A DNA stretch of 53,456 nucleotides from a bacterium (lineage in GTDB: Archaea; Nanobdellota; Nanobdellia; SCGC-AAA011-G17; GW2011-AR17). This document shows positions 19,240 through 49,350 of the stretch, in pieces (within the stretch, counting starts at the first letter, position 1; every line of letters starts with the position of its first letter). Made by a program: the position numbers and the translations under genes. Below the pieces are notes generated by a model. It did not search any database, was not told where the DNA came from, and saw only the letters and a program-made list of their open reading frames with translations. Where the stretch lies: assembly GCA_030697685.1 (NCBI GenBank), contig JAUYPF010000035.1:1-53456 (forward strand), read 5' to 3'.

Positions 19240-19347
19240 GGGCCCGTAGCTCAGCCTGGTAGAGCACCTGCCTTGCAAGTAGGGGGCCTCGGGTTCGAAA
19301 GTGAATCCCCAATATTAAGAGGATCCTCGGAAGTCCCGACGGGTCCA
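19240..19347 (+). tRNA. tRNA-Ala (anticodon UGC) with a T-loop intron
   Basis: The acceptor GGGCCCG pairs with CGGGTCC and contains the G3-U70 pair that identifies tRNA-Ala. The D-stem is GCTC/GAGC, and the anticodon arm is CCTGC-CTTGCAA-GTAGG with anticodon TGC. The T-stem is TCGGG/CCCGA. The T-loop, which should be 7 nt, is interrupted: removing about 34 nt (19300-19333, position ambiguous by 1-2 nt) gives the normal loop TTCGAAT. The inserted segment can form a short ATCC/GGAT helix. I could not place a strict bulge-helix-bulge. Located in the 16S-23S spacer, the usual euryarchaeal-style position. Confidence 0.88.
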
Positions 19348-19483
19348 TATCATAGTCACCATTTGACAAATATAATGCGGCGCATTTCTAAAAAGAAATG
19401 TGCTAAGGGTACTTAACCTCTTGAAACCCAAGAGAGAAATCATATTCAACAATTAGTACCATGCATAGGTAAGAAGGAAATTT
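19348..19483 (+). other. tRNA-Ala/23S spacer with two hairpins and the 23S processing arm
   Basis: The spacer holds a 10-bp hairpin (GCGCATTTCT-AAAA-AGAAATGTGC, about 19380-19403), a second small hairpin (CTCTTG...CAAGAG), and the upstream 23S processing arm at 19459-19478. No gene. Confidence 0.5.
19459..19478 (+). other. 23S processing stem, upstream arm
   Basis: A 20-nt arm beginning CCATGCATAGG and ending AGAAGGA, perfectly complementary to 22406-22425. The pair brackets the 23S gene. Confidence 0.8.
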
Positions 19484-42655: not shown

Positions 42656-43657
42656 ATGGTATATATCTATAAAAAGAAAAGTGGAGAAAAAAACTACTAT
42701 TATCTACGAGCTTCACAAAAGAAAGGGAAAAAAACAATCGTCAAAGACATTGCATATTTAGGAACAACAATAGAAGAGGTAGAACAAGCAATCATAAAAC
42801 TTCCTAAATGGGAGAAAGAAATTAGAAAAGCATATCACACTATCAATAATTTTCTCAAATCAAACCATTACAAAGAGAAAGCAAAAAAAGAAAAAAGAAA
42901 AAAAGATGAATACCTAGAACAAGATCTCTTACTGGAAATAGAAGCTACAAAAATACATTTTCAATCAGTATTCAAAAAGAAAAACACACTCACACAAAAA
43001 GAAACAATAAAAATTTTTACCATTGAGTTTGCATTCAACACTACTTCTCTAGAAGGAAACACAATAAAACTACAAGAAGCAAAAATATTACTTGAAGAAG
43101 GATTAACACCTAAGAATAAAACTCTCAGAGAAGTTTATGATCTTCAAAACACGGAAGAAGTACTTGTAGAAGTAATTTCTGATAAAGAAGATCTCAGCCA
43201 TGAGAAAATACAGGATATACACCTTAAGCTCATGAAGAATATTGACGAGAGAAAGGGCTATAGAAGAGAAGAAGTCAGAGTCTTCAAATCAAATTTTGAT
43301 GCAAGTCCAGCACCTTATGTCAAAACAGATATGGATCTTCTTCTCAAATGGTACAACGAAAATAAAAAAAAGCTCCACCCCTTGATTCTTGCAGGGATAT
43401 TTCATCATAAATTTGAAAAAATACATCCATTTATGGATGGAAATGGAAGAACAGGAAGAATGCTACTCAATAAGATTCTACTTTTGAATGAATACCCACC
43501 GCTCATTATTAGAAAAAAAGAAAGAAAAGGGTATATCCAAGCATTAAGAGAAGCAGATAAAAGCAACCCTTTAGAAAGAGAGAGAAAAAACTATGCCAGC
43601 CTCAATCAGTTTTTAGGAAAAGAACTCATAAGCAGTTATTGGGATATATTTCTCTAA
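42656..43657 (+). CDS. Fic-domain protein (AMPylase-type)
   Basis: A 333-residue Fic/DOC-family protein. The Fic active-site motif is IHPFMDGNGRTGR (about 256-268) with His as general base. An autoinhibitory helix motif (S/T)-x3-E-(G/N) is present upstream as TTSLEGN (about 127-133), which puts it in the class with the inhibitory helix N-terminal to the Fic core. The first 110 residues are basic and Lys-rich, possibly DNA-binding. Fic proteins transfer AMP or other nucleotides to target proteins. A leaderless promoter and flanking direct repeats surround the gene. Confidence 0.9.
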   Translation: MVYIYKKKSGEKNYYYLRASQKKGKKTIVKDIAYLGTTIEEVEQAIIKLPKWEKEIRKAYHTINNFLKSNHYKEKAKKEKRKKDEYLEQDLLLEIEATKIHFQSVFKKKNTLTQKETIKIFTIEFAFNTTSLEGNTIKLQEAKILLEEGLTPKNKTLREVYDLQNTEEVLVEVISDKEDLSHEKIQDIHLKLMKNIDERKGYRREEVRVFKSNFDASPAPYVKTDMDLLLKWYNENKKKLHPLILAGIFHHKFEKIHPFMDGNGRTGRMLLNKILLLNEYPPLIIRKKERKGYIQALREADKSNPLERERKNYASLNQFLGKELISSYWDIFL

Positions 43658-43658
43658 C

Positions 43659-43699
43659 TACCCTTTAAAATAATATTCTAAAAATAAAGGGTAAAGCTA
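43659..43699 (+). repeat. Direct repeat with hairpin, copy 2 (downstream of fic)
   Basis: TACCCTTTA (43659-43667) pairs with TAAAGGGTA (43685-43693). Matches copy 1 at 42589-42629 almost base for base outside the AT-rich loop. The last bases are the stop codon of the convergent phosphodiesterase gene. Confidence 0.75.
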
Positions 43700-45382
43700 T
43701 TTTTTCGCTGTATGATATGCTAAAAATATATGGTACAATTCCTTTGCATTCAACACATGGTCTAAAGAAATCTTATCTCGAGAGATAAAAAACGCATCAC
43801 ACTGCCTTCCCCCTATAGAATCATGTGAACCAAAATGGAAATGTTCAAAAGCTATAATTCTCTCCCCATCAAAAGCACCATTGATAATCAAATCTCCAGA
43901 ATATTTCAACTCCGCAAAATATTTTATTTGCTTGACTAATTTTTTCTCATCACCATATTTTTGTAAAAATCTTTCTCCAACAAACTTCACATCTTTATCA
44001 GTGAGGATAACTTTTCCTTTTGCATGAAGAACAATAATATCCTTGCCTTCTTTCCCAATAGCAAAACCAACACCAGGATGCCCAACAAGTTTCTCCACAA
44101 AGCCAGGATATTTTTTTTCAATCTCAGAAATGTCACAACGATGAGCACTATCGGTAAAATACATCTGTGCTAAAGAAGAAGAATAAAGCATCAAAATTTG
44201 CTTTCTATTCTTCCAATCTATGCTAGGGTCTTTATGTTCCTTACGTAATTGTCTTCCCATATATTTCAATAAAGCATGTATTCCTATGCGCAAAGGAAAA
44301 GACATGTGTTCATAATAATAATGCAACTTATAGTAGATATATTTCATACGACTACTTCGTTCATCTTGATCTGAATGCAAACCTTTCGTAGGAAGATGAC
44401 TAATTCTCTCCACAAAAGTTTCAAAACTTTCATAATAAAGTCGATCAAAAGGAATCGCAGGAACTTGCCCATGATCGGAAAGCACATAGAAGTCATATTC
44501 ATTTTTTCTCGCAACTTTATACATTCGACGAAGATCTGCATCAATCCCCTTAAGCAAAGTAAATGCACTCAAAGAATTAGGTCCTCGATAATGCGAAATC
44601 CAATCATATCCTCCATAGGTAAGATAAATACAAGGGACATTTCTTTGCATTTCTAATAGTGCTGTTTCAGTAGAAATCTCTCTCACTGTAGCATTAATAA
44701 AAGTACGAAAAAAAGGGAAATAAGGAAAGATGAATGGCCAATTAAAATGTTTATTATACAAAAGACCTTTCAAAATCTCTAAAGAACTTTCATAAAGCTC
44801 CACACAAAATTCTATACAACTAGAAAAAATAACTTTTGTCGTTGCAAAAGGATTGAGAAGAATAAGCGCTAGAATATCTCTCAAATTTTTTTGTCCTGTT
44901 TCGGTTTTATAGAGATGAGCCACAGTAATTATAGAACGTGCAGCTCCTCCACAAAAAATATTTCCTATAGATGTTCCACCAGTAAGTATACCATAATTCT
45001 TTGCACTGATTTCCTCTTCTATTGCTCGTGCACTATCAGCAGTACCCATAACATACTGCTTCTGATTTTTTTTATCAAGAAAGCGAAAACCAGGAATATT
45101 TGAATTCTCATTATACATAATACCTGCTTGCACAAAAGGAGTTGTAGAAGGGTAGCCCGGATCAAAACGAGCAACATGATAACTCTTGAGAAGTTTTGTT
45201 AAAAAAGGAATATAGCGAGTATTTCGTAATTGTTGAAGAAGAGAATAAGAAAGCCCATCTACTTGAACGATAATAAATTTTTTATGTTGATGCGAAAGAT
45301 CTTGCAGCTTGAGTCTTCTTTTAAGAAGTGCTGATCTGCTTAAGCGTTTGCGATAAAAATCCTGTACTTTTTTTCTATTCAT
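43697..45382 (-). CDS. Type I phosphodiesterase / alkaline-phosphatase superfamily enzyme
   Basis: A 561-residue protein read from ATG 45380-45382 (MNRKKVQDFYRKRL). A longer frame to 45508 would run through the tRNA gene and is rejected. Superfamily motifs: IIVQVDGLSYSLLQQL with the first metal-binding Asp, PSTTPFVQAGIM with the nucleophile Thr, TYGGYDWISHYRGP with metal-binding Asp and His, and VLSDHGQVPAI with the D-H pair. A phosphohydrolase or phosphotransferase acting on nucleotides, lipids or glycan phosphates. No signal peptide; a hydrophobic stretch near 205-240 may be a membrane contact. Confidence 0.85.
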   Translation of the reverse strand: MNRKKVQDFYRKRLSRSALLKRRLKLQDLSHQHKKFIIVQVDGLSYSLLQQLRNTRYIPFLTKLLKSYHVARFDPGYPSTTPFVQAGIMYNENSNIPGFRFLDKKNQKQYVMGTADSARAIEEEISAKNYGILTGGTSIGNIFCGGAARSIITVAHLYKTETGQKNLRDILALILLNPFATTKVIFSSCIEFCVELYESSLEILKGLLYNKHFNWPFIFPYFPFFRTFINATVREISTETALLEMQRNVPCIYLTYGGYDWISHYRGPNSLSAFTLLKGIDADLRRMYKVARKNEYDFYVLSDHGQVPAIPFDRLYYESFETFVERISHLPTKGLHSDQDERSSRMKYIYYKLHYYYEHMSFPLRIGIHALLKYMGRQLRKEHKDPSIDWKNRKQILMLYSSSLAQMYFTDSAHRCDISEIEKKYPGFVEKLVGHPGVGFAIGKEGKDIIVLHAKGKVILTDKDVKFVGERFLQKYGDEKKLVKQIKYFAELKYSGDLIINGAFDGERIIAFEHFHFGSHDSIGGRQCDAFFISRDKISLDHVLNAKELYHIFLAYHTAKK

Positions 45383-45464: not shown

Positions 45465-45568
45465 AGCGAGGTAGGGCAGAGAATTAAAGGAAACTTTAAG
45501 TCGTCCAATCAGGAGTGCCCGTCGGGCTCATAACCCGGAGGTCGTCGGTTCAAATCCAACCCTCGCTA
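45465..45568 (+). tRNA. Initiator tRNA-Met (CAU) with a D-loop insertion
   Basis: The acceptor AGCGAGG pairs with CCTCGCT: A1-U72 is the archaeal initiator mark. The anticodon arm TCGGG-CTCATAA-CCCGG has the three consecutive G-C pairs of initiators. T-arm GTCGG-TTCAAAT-CCAAC has one C-A mismatch. The D-loop holds an extra segment of about 29 nt (45480-45508; edges ambiguous) containing a hairpin TTAAAG-GAAA-CTTTAA. Removing it restores the classical AG-TCAGGAG D-loop. CCA is not encoded. A LAGLIDADG gene begins 28 nt downstream. Confidence 0.9.
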
Positions 45569-45595
45569 CTTTTTTTTAAAAATATATCCTATTTA

Positions 45596-46153
45596 ATGAA
45601 AGAAAAAATCTCAAAAAAACAACTAGGCTATGTAGTAGGAGTATACTATGGAGATGGGTATATATATTATGATAAGAAATCAAGACACTATAGCATAGAG
45701 TTTTCTCTAAATTCTTTAAAAGATTTAGACATTCTTAAATTTTTAAAAGAGATACTCATAAAAGAAGGATATAATCTTTTCATTAAAAAAGATAAAAGAG
45801 GAAACTGGTTTGTAATTAAAATGTATTCAAAACAACTCTATTCTTATTTGAAAGAATACAAACTACAAAATCTCAAAAGGGAAACAAAAGATTTCAAAAT
45901 AGGATTTATTTCTGGTGTCATTGACGCAGAAGCCTATGTAGGCAATAGTACTATTGAAGTCATAAATACAGACTTAGAATTACTCAAAATCACTAAACAA
46001 ATACTTAATGAAATCAACATTAGTTCAAGTCTTAAAAAACGAGTAAGATCTAAAAAAGATACAAAAGATTCTTTCAGATTACTAGTCTCTACAAAGATCA
46101 AAAAAGCAAAGCATATCTCCCAAAAAGTTTTAAGACTATACCCTACAAAATAG
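45596..46153 (+). CDS. LAGLIDADG homing endonuclease
   Basis: A 185-residue protein read from ATG 45596 (MKEKISKKQLGYVVGVYYGD); an earlier in-frame start would lie inside the tRNA. Two LAGLIDADG helices are visible: LGYVVGVYYGDG (residues about 10-21, with the catalytic Asp D20) and IGFISGVIDAEAYV (with Asp/Glu). This is a single-chain, two-motif monomer of the size of archaeal tRNA/rRNA-intron endonucleases. It follows the split initiator tRNA by 28 nt, so it probably recognises the intron-less tRNA-Met locus. It is free-standing, not inside the intron. Confidence 0.87.
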   Translation: MKEKISKKQLGYVVGVYYGDGYIYYDKKSRHYSIEFSLNSLKDLDILKFLKEILIKEGYNLFIKKDKRGNWFVIKMYSKQLYSYLKEYKLQNLKRETKDFKIGFISGVIDAEAYVGNSTIEVINTDLELLKITKQILNEINISSSLKKRVRSKKDTKDSFRLLVSTKIKKAKHISQKVLRLYPTK

Positions 46154-46191: not shown

Positions 46192-49100
46192 ATGAGGAAA
46201 AAGATTGGTATCATTATAGTATTATGTATTCTTTTACTCAGTCAAATAAATTCTGAAGATACTATTATTGAACCAGAAGTACTCAATACTTTAGAAAATA
46301 ATAACGAAGTTCAAGTAATTGTAGAACTCAAGGAACCATTACAAGAACTTTCAATACTAAAACAGCTTTCAACTGCTGATGTCGAACTCAATCATTTCTC
46401 AGGAAACTCCTACGCAGCAAAAGTCAATGAAGAAGAACTTCAAGAACTCATTAATGATCCTAATGTCAAAAGCATACAGCAAGATGAAATTTTTCATATC
46501 CTTCTCGCAGACACAGTCCCGCTCATCAACGCATCAATAATACATTCGAGACAAAATGGCACAACAAACATGACAGGTCTTGGACAAAGTGTTTGTGTGA
46601 TTGATACAGGAATAAATACAACACATCCCGGACTCGCAGGTCGCATTGTCGCCCAAAAATGTTTCTGCGCAGTCTCTGACGCAGGTTCAGGAGGTTGCTG
46701 TCCAGGAAATGTTGCAGAGAACAGCACTGCCGCAACAGACGACCAAGGCCATGGAACGCATATCTCTGGTATCGCCGCAGGGAATGGCTCAGGTATTACA
46801 GGAGTTGCACCAGAAGCATCCATTATCGCAGTAAAAGTTGCCGATGCTGCTGGTGACGCACTTTTTTCAGATATTACCTCAGCAGTAAATTGGTGTACAA
46901 GCAATGCATCAAAATATAATATTTCAGTTATTTCAATCAGTTTAGGAGGAGGTTCTTACGCTACTTCTTGTGATTCCTCCTACACATCACTCTCTTCTGA
47001 AATTAACACTGCATGGAATAACAATGTATCTGTTGTTGTCGCTTCAGGAAATTCTGGTTTCACCACAAACATGACTGCTCCTGCATGTATCAACAAAACA
47101 ATCTCAGTATCTTCAACTACAAAAGCTGACGCAATTTCTTCTTTCTCAAATAGAAACGCATTAACAGACCTCTTCGCTCCAGGCTCTTCCATTAATTCAA
47201 CAAACCTATCCAGCATCACCAAAGTTAGTTCAGGAACATCCATGTCTGCTCCTCATGTTGCTGGGGTAGTTCTCCTGATGCAACAATATAAAGAAACAGT
47301 TGAACGAAGAAATCTAACAGTCAGTGAAATAAACATGACACTTGCAACAAATGGAACAAGTATTGATGATAATGCAGGATCAGGAAGAACTTTCATTCGT
47401 GTAGACGCAAAAAAAGCAGTTACTGCTGGAGATACTCTTTTCCCACAAATAGAAAACCCAAATACAACTTCTACAACATTATTTATTTATAGCAATATTA
47501 CTTTTATTGCAAATGTCACTGATGTCAACAGGGAAACAGTATGGATTGAAGGAAACTGGTCTGGTTCTCGAGTAAACTATACCATAACAAACAAAGTAGG
47601 AGATCAATATAATTATTCTTTGCATAATAATAGTTTTACTGCAGGTCAAGTATTTCATTGGCGTATTCACGCAAATGATAGTAATAACAATGAAAATATA
47701 ACAAGCTGGTTTACAATAACCATACTTACTGGCGCACCAAGAATAACTCTCCATAATCCTAATAACCTAACAAACACAAACAATCTTTCAAACACATTTA
47801 ACTTTACTGCTATAGAAGATGTTTCTGGAAATTTTAATTGTAGTATATACATAAACAGCATAAAAAATCAAACATCAACAACCGTCTCGAATAATACACT
47901 TACAGAATTCAGACAAAATCTTACAGAAGGAACACATCTCTGGAACATTGCATGTACAGATTCTCATAATCTTATTGGCAACTCTTCACTTAGAACATTA
48001 ATTTTGGATACAACATCCCCAACATTCAACGCAGAAGGATATACATCTCTTGTAGAACTTGGTGATAATCAATCCTATTCTATTAATCTGACAGAGCTAT
48101 ATCTCAATTATGCCAACTTCTCCTATATTGGAGTAAACTACACCCTCACAAACAGCTCCACAAATTTCTCTCGAGTATGGAGAACCTTCCAAAATGGAAC
48201 AAACCTTTTTACAATCTATGCATTAGATACTGCAAGGAATCTCAACACAACAACAGGAAATTTCACAGTCAATGATACCATAACTGGTCCGAGAATTCTC
48301 AATACTCTCTATAGCAGTAGCATAACACAAAACACCACACAAAATATTACAGTCTGGGTTTTGAACAACTTTCCTCTTTCTGCAATTCTCATCAATCCAA
48401 ATGGCTCAAACTACTCCATGGCAAATAATACTGCATATAATTTCACTTTTGCATTTACTGCAACAACTTGTGGTTCACAAAGCTTCAAAATATTTTCAAA
48501 TGACACAGCCAATGCTGGGGTAACAAATACAACATCCTATACAGTAACAGGCTGTTGTGGCGACTCCTCGTGTAGTTCTGGAGAATCCTGTTCTACATGT
48601 GCAGCAGACTGTGGAGCATGTTCCACTTCAAGTTCTACAACAACAGGAGCAGGCGGAGGAGGTGGTGGAGGAGGAACAACACCAACAACAAAATCTTTAG
48701 CACCAAGTGCAGTTATAGAAGCACCAAAAATAATAACAGAAACATTTGCGGCAGCAAGCCCAGATACAGGAATCCAAATTGAACTTGTAAGTGAAAACAT
48801 TCCTATAAGCATGGTTGATATCACACTAAATAGTGCTCTAGAAAATGTAGAAGTAACAATAGAAGCACTTGATGCTCGACCTACAGAAATTGAAAGTCCA
48901 GATGGAGTTATTTATCAATATTTAAAATTTACTACAGTCAACTTAGAAAATACAGCAATTGATTCTGCAAAGCTAGAATTTTATGTTCCAAATATTTGGT
49001 TTTTAGAAAATGCTGTTAATGAAAAGACAATACAATTACTGAGATATAATGAAGAATGGCAAGAACTCCCAACAGAATATCTTCGCTTAGAAAATGCAAA

Positions 49101-49350
49101 TCATTATTATAGTGCAACAACAGAAGGCTTTTCCTATTTTGTGATTAAAGGAGAAAAAGCAATGATTGCAACAGAAAATATCACTGCAATAGAAGAGCAA
49201 ATTCAAGCACAACAGAAAGCAGAAATAGCCCTCAAAAAAACAAACATACTCAAAGTTTTAATTATAGGGATAGGAAGTATTCTCCTCTTAATCCTTGGTA
49301 TTATTTTCCTTGTCTGGTATGAAAGAAGAAAAGAACAACAGAACCTTTAA
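46192..49350 (+). CDS. Secreted subtilisin-family protease with cell-surface anchor
   Basis: A 1052-residue S8 protease. Signal peptide (MRKKIGIIIVLCILLLSQIN), an I9-type propeptide (about 25-100), and the catalytic domain: Asp in VCVIDTGINTTHPG (near 138), His in DDQGHGTHISG (near 185), Ser in SSGTSMSAPHVAG (near 348). Two or three Ig/beta-sandwich-like domains follow with many N-x-S/T sequons. A Cys-rich module (C-x3-C-x3-E-x-C-x2-C) precedes a poly-Gly hinge, then an acidic stalk and a C-terminal transmembrane helix (VLIIGIGSILLLILGIIFLV). Likely acts outside the cell, processing host or self surface proteins. Confidence 0.92.
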   Translation: MRKKIGIIIVLCILLLSQINSEDTIIEPEVLNTLENNNEVQVIVELKEPLQELSILKQLSTADVELNHFSGNSYAAKVNEEELQELINDPNVKSIQQDEIFHILLADTVPLINASIIHSRQNGTTNMTGLGQSVCVIDTGINTTHPGLAGRIVAQKCFCAVSDAGSGGCCPGNVAENSTAATDDQGHGTHISGIAAGNGSGITGVAPEASIIAVKVADAAGDALFSDITSAVNWCTSNASKYNISVISISLGGGSYATSCDSSYTSLSSEINTAWNNNVSVVVASGNSGFTTNMTAPACINKTISVSSTTKADAISSFSNRNALTDLFAPGSSINSTNLSSITKVSSGTSMSAPHVAGVVLLMQQYKETVERRNLTVSEINMTLATNGTSIDDNAGSGRTFIRVDAKKAVTAGDTLFPQIENPNTTSTTLFIYSNITFIANVTDVNRETVWIEGNWSGSRVNYTITNKVGDQYNYSLHNNSFTAGQVFHWRIHANDSNNNENITSWFTITILTGAPRITLHNPNNLTNTNNLSNTFNFTAIEDVSGNFNCSIYINSIKNQTSTTVSNNTLTEFRQNLTEGTHLWNIACTDSHNLIGNSSLRTLILDTTSPTFNAEGYTSLVELGDNQSYSINLTELYLNYANFSYIGVNYTLTNSSTNFSRVWRTFQNGTNLFTIYALDTARNLNTTTGNFTVNDTITGPRILNTLYSSSITQNTTQNITVWVLNNFPLSAILINPNGSNYSMANNTAYNFTFAFTATTCGSQSFKIFSNDTANAGVTNTTSYTVTGCCGDSSCSSGESCSTCAADCGACSTSSSTTTGAGGGGGGGGTTPTTKSLAPSAVIEAPKIITETFAAASPDTGIQIELVSENIPISMVDITLNSALENVEVTIEALDARPTEIESPDGVIYQYLKFTTVNLENTAIDSAKLEFYVPNIWFLENAVNEKTIQLLRYNEEWQELPTEYLRLENANHYYSATTEGFSYFVIKGEKAMIATENITAIEEQIQAQQKAEIALKKTNILKVLIIGIGSILLLILGIIFLVWYERRKEQQNL

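Follow-up and report, generated by a model that had tools for sequence, protein, structure and literature searches.

A LAGLIDADG endonuclease gene beside an intron-bearing initiator tRNA gene in DPANN archaea: a probable case of collaborative homing

Cyanobacterial initiator tRNA genes carry self-splicing group I introns with their own endonuclease, of a nuclease family other than the one considered here, and thus also represent a selfish pair at an initiator tRNA. In phages, collaborative homing has been described, whereby an endonuclease encoded on its own targets the place at which a nearby group I intron lacking an open reading frame (ORF) is inserted, as in cyanophage psbA (Zeng et al. 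2009, as reviewed in PMC3984707). Within archaea, a 1.87-kb insert in tRNA-Thr(GGU) of Caldiarchaeum subterraneum was ascribed to an integrase/recombinase of the pNOB8 type (Sugahara et al. 2012, PMC3293823), whilst tRNA intron transposition in Thermoproteales involved similar introns that had moved among different tRNAs (Fujishima et al. 2010, cited in PMC4033280). In the open-access full-text literature we found no report of homing endonuclease genes (HEGs) linked to archaeal or DPANN tRNA introns in the manner described here.

The window, the whole 53-kb contig analysed (C11), belongs to a 1.07-Mb draft archaeal genome (G000) with 23 tRNA matches, several of them with long introns. An initiator tRNA-Met (iMet) gene lies on its plus strand at 45465..45568 (pre-tRNA 104 nt), identified by its CAT anticodon (within CTCATAA), an anticodon stem with three G:C pairs, and A1:U72. 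The gene was missed by ARAGORN and at the Rfam gathering cut-off, and is detected (E 9.8e-16) by a dedicated covariance model built partly from the same gene. Automated splice-aware alignment divided it into a 5' exon of positions 1-15 (AGCGAGGTAGGGCAG, 45465..45479), a 29-nt intron at position 15/16 (AGAATTAAAGGAAACTTTAAGTCGTCCAA, 45480..45508), also supported by the helix test below, and a 3' exon of positions 16-73 (45509..45568), all on the plus strand. The spliced form, AGCGAGGTAGGGCAG continuing into TCAGGAGTGCCC, aligned without gaps to its orthologues over 75 columns, with 90% mean column identity. The 29-nt hairpin insert that the sequence-only reading had placed in the D-loop is therefore real, with TTAAAG-GAAA-CTTTAA forming the hairpin at 45480-45508. 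Under the bulge-helix-bulge rule, whereby four exon bases ending 2 before the 5' cut pair with four intron bases ending 2 before the 3' cut, the helix is GGGC/GTCC, with AG^A and AA^T as predicted cut sites; a non-canonical outer exon helix places the motif in its relaxed form.

A spacer of 27 nt (45569..45595, +), rather than the 28 nt first counted, separates the tRNA from the ATG of the endonuclease gene; its T-run probably terminates the tRNA transcript, and a TATA-like stretch rich in A/T ahead of the ATG is a putative promoter. The endonuclease gene, HEG-A (45596..46153, +; 185 aa), likely starts at ATG 45596, and a listed longer ORF from 45515 begins within the tRNA. The locus is preceded by genes for a Fic-domain protein (42656-43657, +; Pfam 5.6e-22) and a phosphodiesterase/nucleotide pyrophosphatase (43697..45382, -; PF01663 7.3e-14), and followed by a subtilisin-like S8 peptidase gene (46192..49350, +; PF00082 1.9e-39). 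The earlier identification of a two-motif LAGLIDADG endonuclease beside iMet was borne out by a match in two stretches to PF14528 (LAGLIDADG_3; 1.4e-12) and by the motifs LGYVVGVYYGDG and IGFISGVIDAE, both with an acidic residue (D20 and E112), of which D20 is invariant and E112 nearly invariant among 10 HEG-A members. The AlphaFold model (pLDDT 89) gave the archaeal endonuclease I-DmoI as its best Foldseek match (E 5.3e-10, TM ~0.67), so that HEG-A has the motifs, catalytic acids and fold of its class. It is the sole close copy within the G000 genome.

Neither a single-protein scan of the genome collection nor a scan of viral contigs returned relatives of HEG-A, and an alignment-based scan recovered them where the single-protein scan had failed. 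Searching 145 and 378 related genomes and the GTDB contigs with profiles, and recognising one remnant by eye, yielded 16 members (G000, G126, G123, G080, G018, G129, G350, G259, L174, L175, L176, L178 and L182, with the degraded G109, G042 and G008). The genomes compared are metagenome-assembled, and those with matches include records labelled Nanoarchaeota, Pacearchaeota, Parvarchaeota and Aenigmatarchaeota. All 16 members adjoin an intron-bearing initiator tRNA gene and have the arrangement of collaborative homing, a free-standing endonuclease adjoining an ORF-less intron. A D-arm intron (positions 9 to 17) was present at 15 of these loci, the exception being G018, with an intron at 37/38 only. 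Five members (L174, L175, L176, L178 and L182) were found in a scan made after the association had been predicted, and all fit it. HEG-A lies on the 5' side of the tRNA in all members except G080, where it is convergent at the tRNA 3' end, and G000, where it is downstream on the same strand. Most of the genes are flush with the tRNA 5' end, and in G126, G018, G129, G350 and L174 the stop codon is shared with the tRNA (a T joined to the initial AG of the tRNA). The distribution is patchy, with about 11 of the 378 genomes of the class encoding HEG-A; together with the decay series described below, this is consistent with a protein that would cut a long DNA site and promote its own transfer.

We put at roughly 70% the probability that these loci reflect collaborative homing at iMet, in which HEG-A cleaves iMet copies that have no intron, the intron shields the site in those that have one, and endonuclease gene and intron are copied as a pair; cleavage of iMet DNA, protection by the intron, splicing and transfer are what we infer from sequence comparison. 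The I-DmoI-like HEG-A would target the D-arm half of the iMet gene, which is essential and highly conserved, and would cut uninterrupted copies, whereupon repair from the resident copy would transfer the flanking endonuclease gene along with the short intron a few bases inside the tRNA. Because the intron would split the recognition site, the converted allele would be immune, and because the splicing endonuclease EndA would excise the intron from the RNA, the tRNA would still function. In most relatives, one contiguous insertion would comprise the endonuclease gene, a regenerated tRNA 5' end and the intron, with the old 5' end staying as a direct repeat; once fixed, the endonuclease would decay and the intron persist. 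The window would hold a version with the endonuclease on the tRNA 3' side and the protecting intron at 15/16.

Comparison of occupied and empty loci bears on this proposal directly. The iMet 5' half is uninterrupted in 279 of the 378 class genomes, and among HEG-A genomes only in G018, plus G123 by way of its other allele. G123 has two alleles of the iMet locus, strain variants inside one assembly, whose flanks are 95.8% and 95.1% identical. In the allele on contig 49, a D-arm intron accompanies a HEG-A gene flush with the tRNA; the allele on contig 60 has neither, bearing a different LAGLIDADG gene within an intron at 37/38. Similarly, G109 has a decayed HEG-A and a D-arm intron at the locus where its congeners G136 and G150 lack both. 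This joint presence and absence is unpredicted under intronless homing, in which HEG-A would settle next to iMet through cleavage of a site in or close to the gene and the introns would be an unrelated trait of the whole lineage. The same holds for the rarity of introns at 9-14 without HEG-A. A HEG next to an unblocked target tRNA would, moreover, leave its own chromosome cleavable. We had initially held that introns at 9-14 never occur without HEG-A, a statement softened on account of G106, which has a D-side insert and no HEG at all. We consider such independent neighbours unlikely. In their favour, tRNA introns are abundant in the lineage, 15/16 introns are common without HEG-A, and G000 shares its intron, but not its HEG, with the congener G005.

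In G005, the intron of the window and its synteny are retained, with the S8 peptidase gene directly after the tRNA and the phosphodiesterase gene upstream of it, and no HEG is present. A 15/16 intron without HEG-A was also found in at least 12 other genomes, one of which (G249) has another LAGLIDADG-like gene upstream. Together with G106, these cases indicate that the intron can outlive, or precede, the endonuclease, and G005 makes the pair separable at the window locus. A strict tie between the window's own intron and the endonuclease was therefore dropped. The endonuclease may be a late arrival in the window or may have been lost from the sister genome G005, and the pairing there could be coincidental, given the same intron without HEG-A in G005 and the others. 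The claim of the sequence-only reading that the intron was mobilised by the neighbouring endonuclease thus holds up across relatives, through the 16 adjoining pairs and the G123 and G109 comparisons, and weakens at the very locus for which it was made. Its expectation of a joint distribution likewise stood in one direction, as endonucleases without introns at random were not seen; in the other direction, introns without the endonuclease are common at 15/16.

Further endonuclease families occur at the same tRNA. HEG3 and HEG4 were spotted beside HEG-A-free iMet loci and then used as search queries. HEG3 is convergent and flush with the iMet 3' end (11 of its 12 top matches at iMet, the twelfth at a contig edge), and HEG4 is near iMet on either side (11/11 top matches at iMet). 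Counting related genomes as independent, D-arm introns accompany HEG-A at 15/16 loci versus 5/23 for HEG3 and HEG4 combined (Fisher p 1e-5), introns at 27-30 (given also as 27-31) accompany HEG4 at 11/11 versus 7/28 in the other two families (p 2e-5), and introns at 42/43, 43/44 or 53/54-54/55 accompany HEG3 at 12/12 versus 8/27 in the other two (p 5e-5); the iMet search pattern used at HEG3 and HEG4 loci favoured an uninterrupted D-arm, and of four loci missed three were added by eye. The endonuclease family hence predicts intron position, as collaborative homing requires and as independent neighbours would not. On contig 60 of G123 (L112), the LAGLIDADG gene of ~200 aa lies inside the iMet 37/38 intron, and a short intron resembling this one at its 3' end occurs in the sister allele. 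Family 2, a ~180-aa protein with a single GEG motif encoded just downstream of iMet with a 15/16 intron (L089/L113 in G012 and L090/L114 in G075), had no Pfam match and is a candidate further endonuclease family by its motif and position.

LAGLIDADG genes were also encountered away from iMet. In G000, a HEG3-like gene on contig C48 (L230, 493-1430) precedes another tRNA gene by 145 nt. Longer genes of the HTH-LAGLIDADG type terminate flush against tRNA-Gly (L010, L013, L015, L031, L034, L036, L038, L043 and L048) and tRNA-Pro (L008, L009, L018 and L040), isotypes being assigned partly by eye; several of these tRNAs have introns, and the stop codon often comes from the reverse T-loop. These loci are the same principle at other tRNAs. 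In L012, L016 and L017, LAGLIDADG genes lie between rpS17e and an Alba gene (names by eye). The ~30 nt, stop included, that break the Alba frame after GSKPF/GNKPF may be a short mRNA intron with its endonuclease gene alongside. An element, CGACATACYCGYCATACCCCCGTGAG...TTATAAA, which is absent from the window, occurs upstream of HEGs of different families (L003, L013, L014, L031, L090 and L109) and is perhaps a common promoter or operator.

Most HEG-A loci carry a second trace of the tRNA. In 10 of 14 members, a copy of the tRNA 5' end (GCGRRGTRGW; GCGGGGTRGA-like, <=1 mismatch) lies just ahead of the first LAGLIDADG motif; G000 and G080 lack it. The signal is weak at single loci and clear only when pooled against a local background of ~0.025 per scanned window (binomial P ~1e-13, overstated since the members are related). 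The repeat is translated in some members (MRGRE, MRGGE), yet in G018 and L174 it is not part of the reading frame, and conservation of the protein is thus not a sufficient explanation. Of two copies that are not identical, it is the tRNA-proximal one that pairs with the 3' acceptor strand. On the simplest reading, one insertion at about tRNA position 10 would have brought in the endonuclease gene, a new 5' end and the intron, leaving the old 5' end behind. A plasmid or virus recombinase that re-formed the tRNA, making the 5' duplication and the intron with the endonuclease as passenger, would yield the same architecture, since the Caldiarchaeum tRNA-Thr locus combines a 5' fragment, an insert, a flush ORF and a new intron (PMC3293823). 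Such an origin is nevertheless quite improbable for inserts of only ~0.6 kb, with a single LAGLIDADG ORF and no integrase or recombinase between the tRNA copies in the loci read, and with a duplicated tRNA 5' piece of only about 10-13 nt.

The fate of HEG-A further supports a selfish gene over a domesticated one. Its members form a series from intact, through stop-containing (G109) and half-gene (G042), to a 26-codon remnant (G008), with the intron still adjacent in each. Were the protein retained for a cellular function, for example to help splice iMet (a maturase) or to regulate it, its constant association with one essential RNA gene would be explained, and domesticated LAGLIDADG folds such as WhiA do exist. 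We regard this as very improbable in view of the patchy distribution within the class, the decayed copies beside intact-looking intron-bearing tRNA genes, the retained catalytic acids and the absence of HEG-A from the congener with the same intron.

In the proposed scheme, the insert would be removed from the RNA. In 20 iMet introns at 15/16, the 4-bp splice helix (for example GGGC/GTCC, GAAC/GTTC, GAGC/GCTC and GGAC/GTCC) pairs in 79 of 80 cells. Random 4-mers from the same introns paired in a mean of 35.4/80 cells and intron ends shuffled among species in 73.9/80; none of 5000 shuffles reached 79, indicating covariation of the helix. Pairing was found in 24/24 cells for introns at 10/11 and 46/48 for those at 53/54. 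On the strength of helix pairing and covariation at these positions, the iMet inserts would be spliced introns by all sequence criteria. That the insert is instead an expanded D-loop kept in the mature tRNA can, despite its stable hairpin, scarcely be credited alongside this covarying helix, spliced forms that match intronless orthologues, and variable insertion sites. One EndA gene was detected in G000, most similar to the alpha subunit of Nanoarchaeum equitans EndA, and no beta subunit was found in that genome at E 1e-3. The two-subunit N. equitans enzyme cleaves noncanonical motifs, according to a reference title in PMC4090602. With this nearest relative, and with iMet genes of relatives interrupted at many different positions, broad-specificity splicing in G000 is plausible. 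The sequence-only reading had inferred such splicing from the iMet insert together with a T-loop intron in tRNA-Ala, which is likewise real: read by eye, a 34-nt intron (AGTGAATC...CTCGGAAG) lies at 59/60 in the tRNA-Ala of the 16S-23S spacer (19240-19350, +), its exon TTCG pairing with intron CGGA under the same splice rule.

Overall, it seems to us an even proposition that in these DPANN archaea the iMet gene serves as a hotspot for the homing of three or more LAGLIDADG families, probably five, each a compact element of endonuclease gene, regenerated tRNA end and short intron that would insert into, restore and immunise the tRNA in one step, and that many noncanonical archaeal tRNA introns are fossils of such events. 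The pairing gives a concrete, testable cause for the gain of archaeal tRNA introns and their pile-up at odd positions, the introns being that part of a homing element which confers immunity and rides along, and suggests that many spread as protection against, and passengers of, selfish endonuclease genes. It would also take collaborative homing beyond the group I introns of phages, to introns that are spliced by protein and interrupt an essential tRNA of the cell. As in the phage systems, the HEG-A gene lies outside the intron, its predicted target is the intron site and the intron would protect the allele; the iMet introns are, however, of the bulge-helix-bulge type and spliced by protein rather than group I ribozymes, the target is an essential initiator tRNA, several endonuclease families each have their own intron position, and cleavage here is deduced. 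HEG-A shares the two-motif monomeric form and fold of the intron-encoded I-DmoI, yet at ~19% identity; the I-DmoI gene lies within an intron of 23S rRNA, that of HEG-A outside its tRNA intron. The Thermoproteales, too, have rapidly gained tRNA introns at noncanonical sites, in the cited account with no endonuclease named, whilst here one tRNA gene has been hit repeatedly. The closest architectural precedent is the Caldiarchaeum tRNA-Thr(GGU) insertion, which likewise combines a 5' tRNA fragment, an insert whose ORF directly adjoins the tRNA, and a newly gained intron shortly inside the tRNA, polymorphic in one population; at iMet, by contrast, the ORF encodes a LAGLIDADG endonuclease and many genomes show the pattern.
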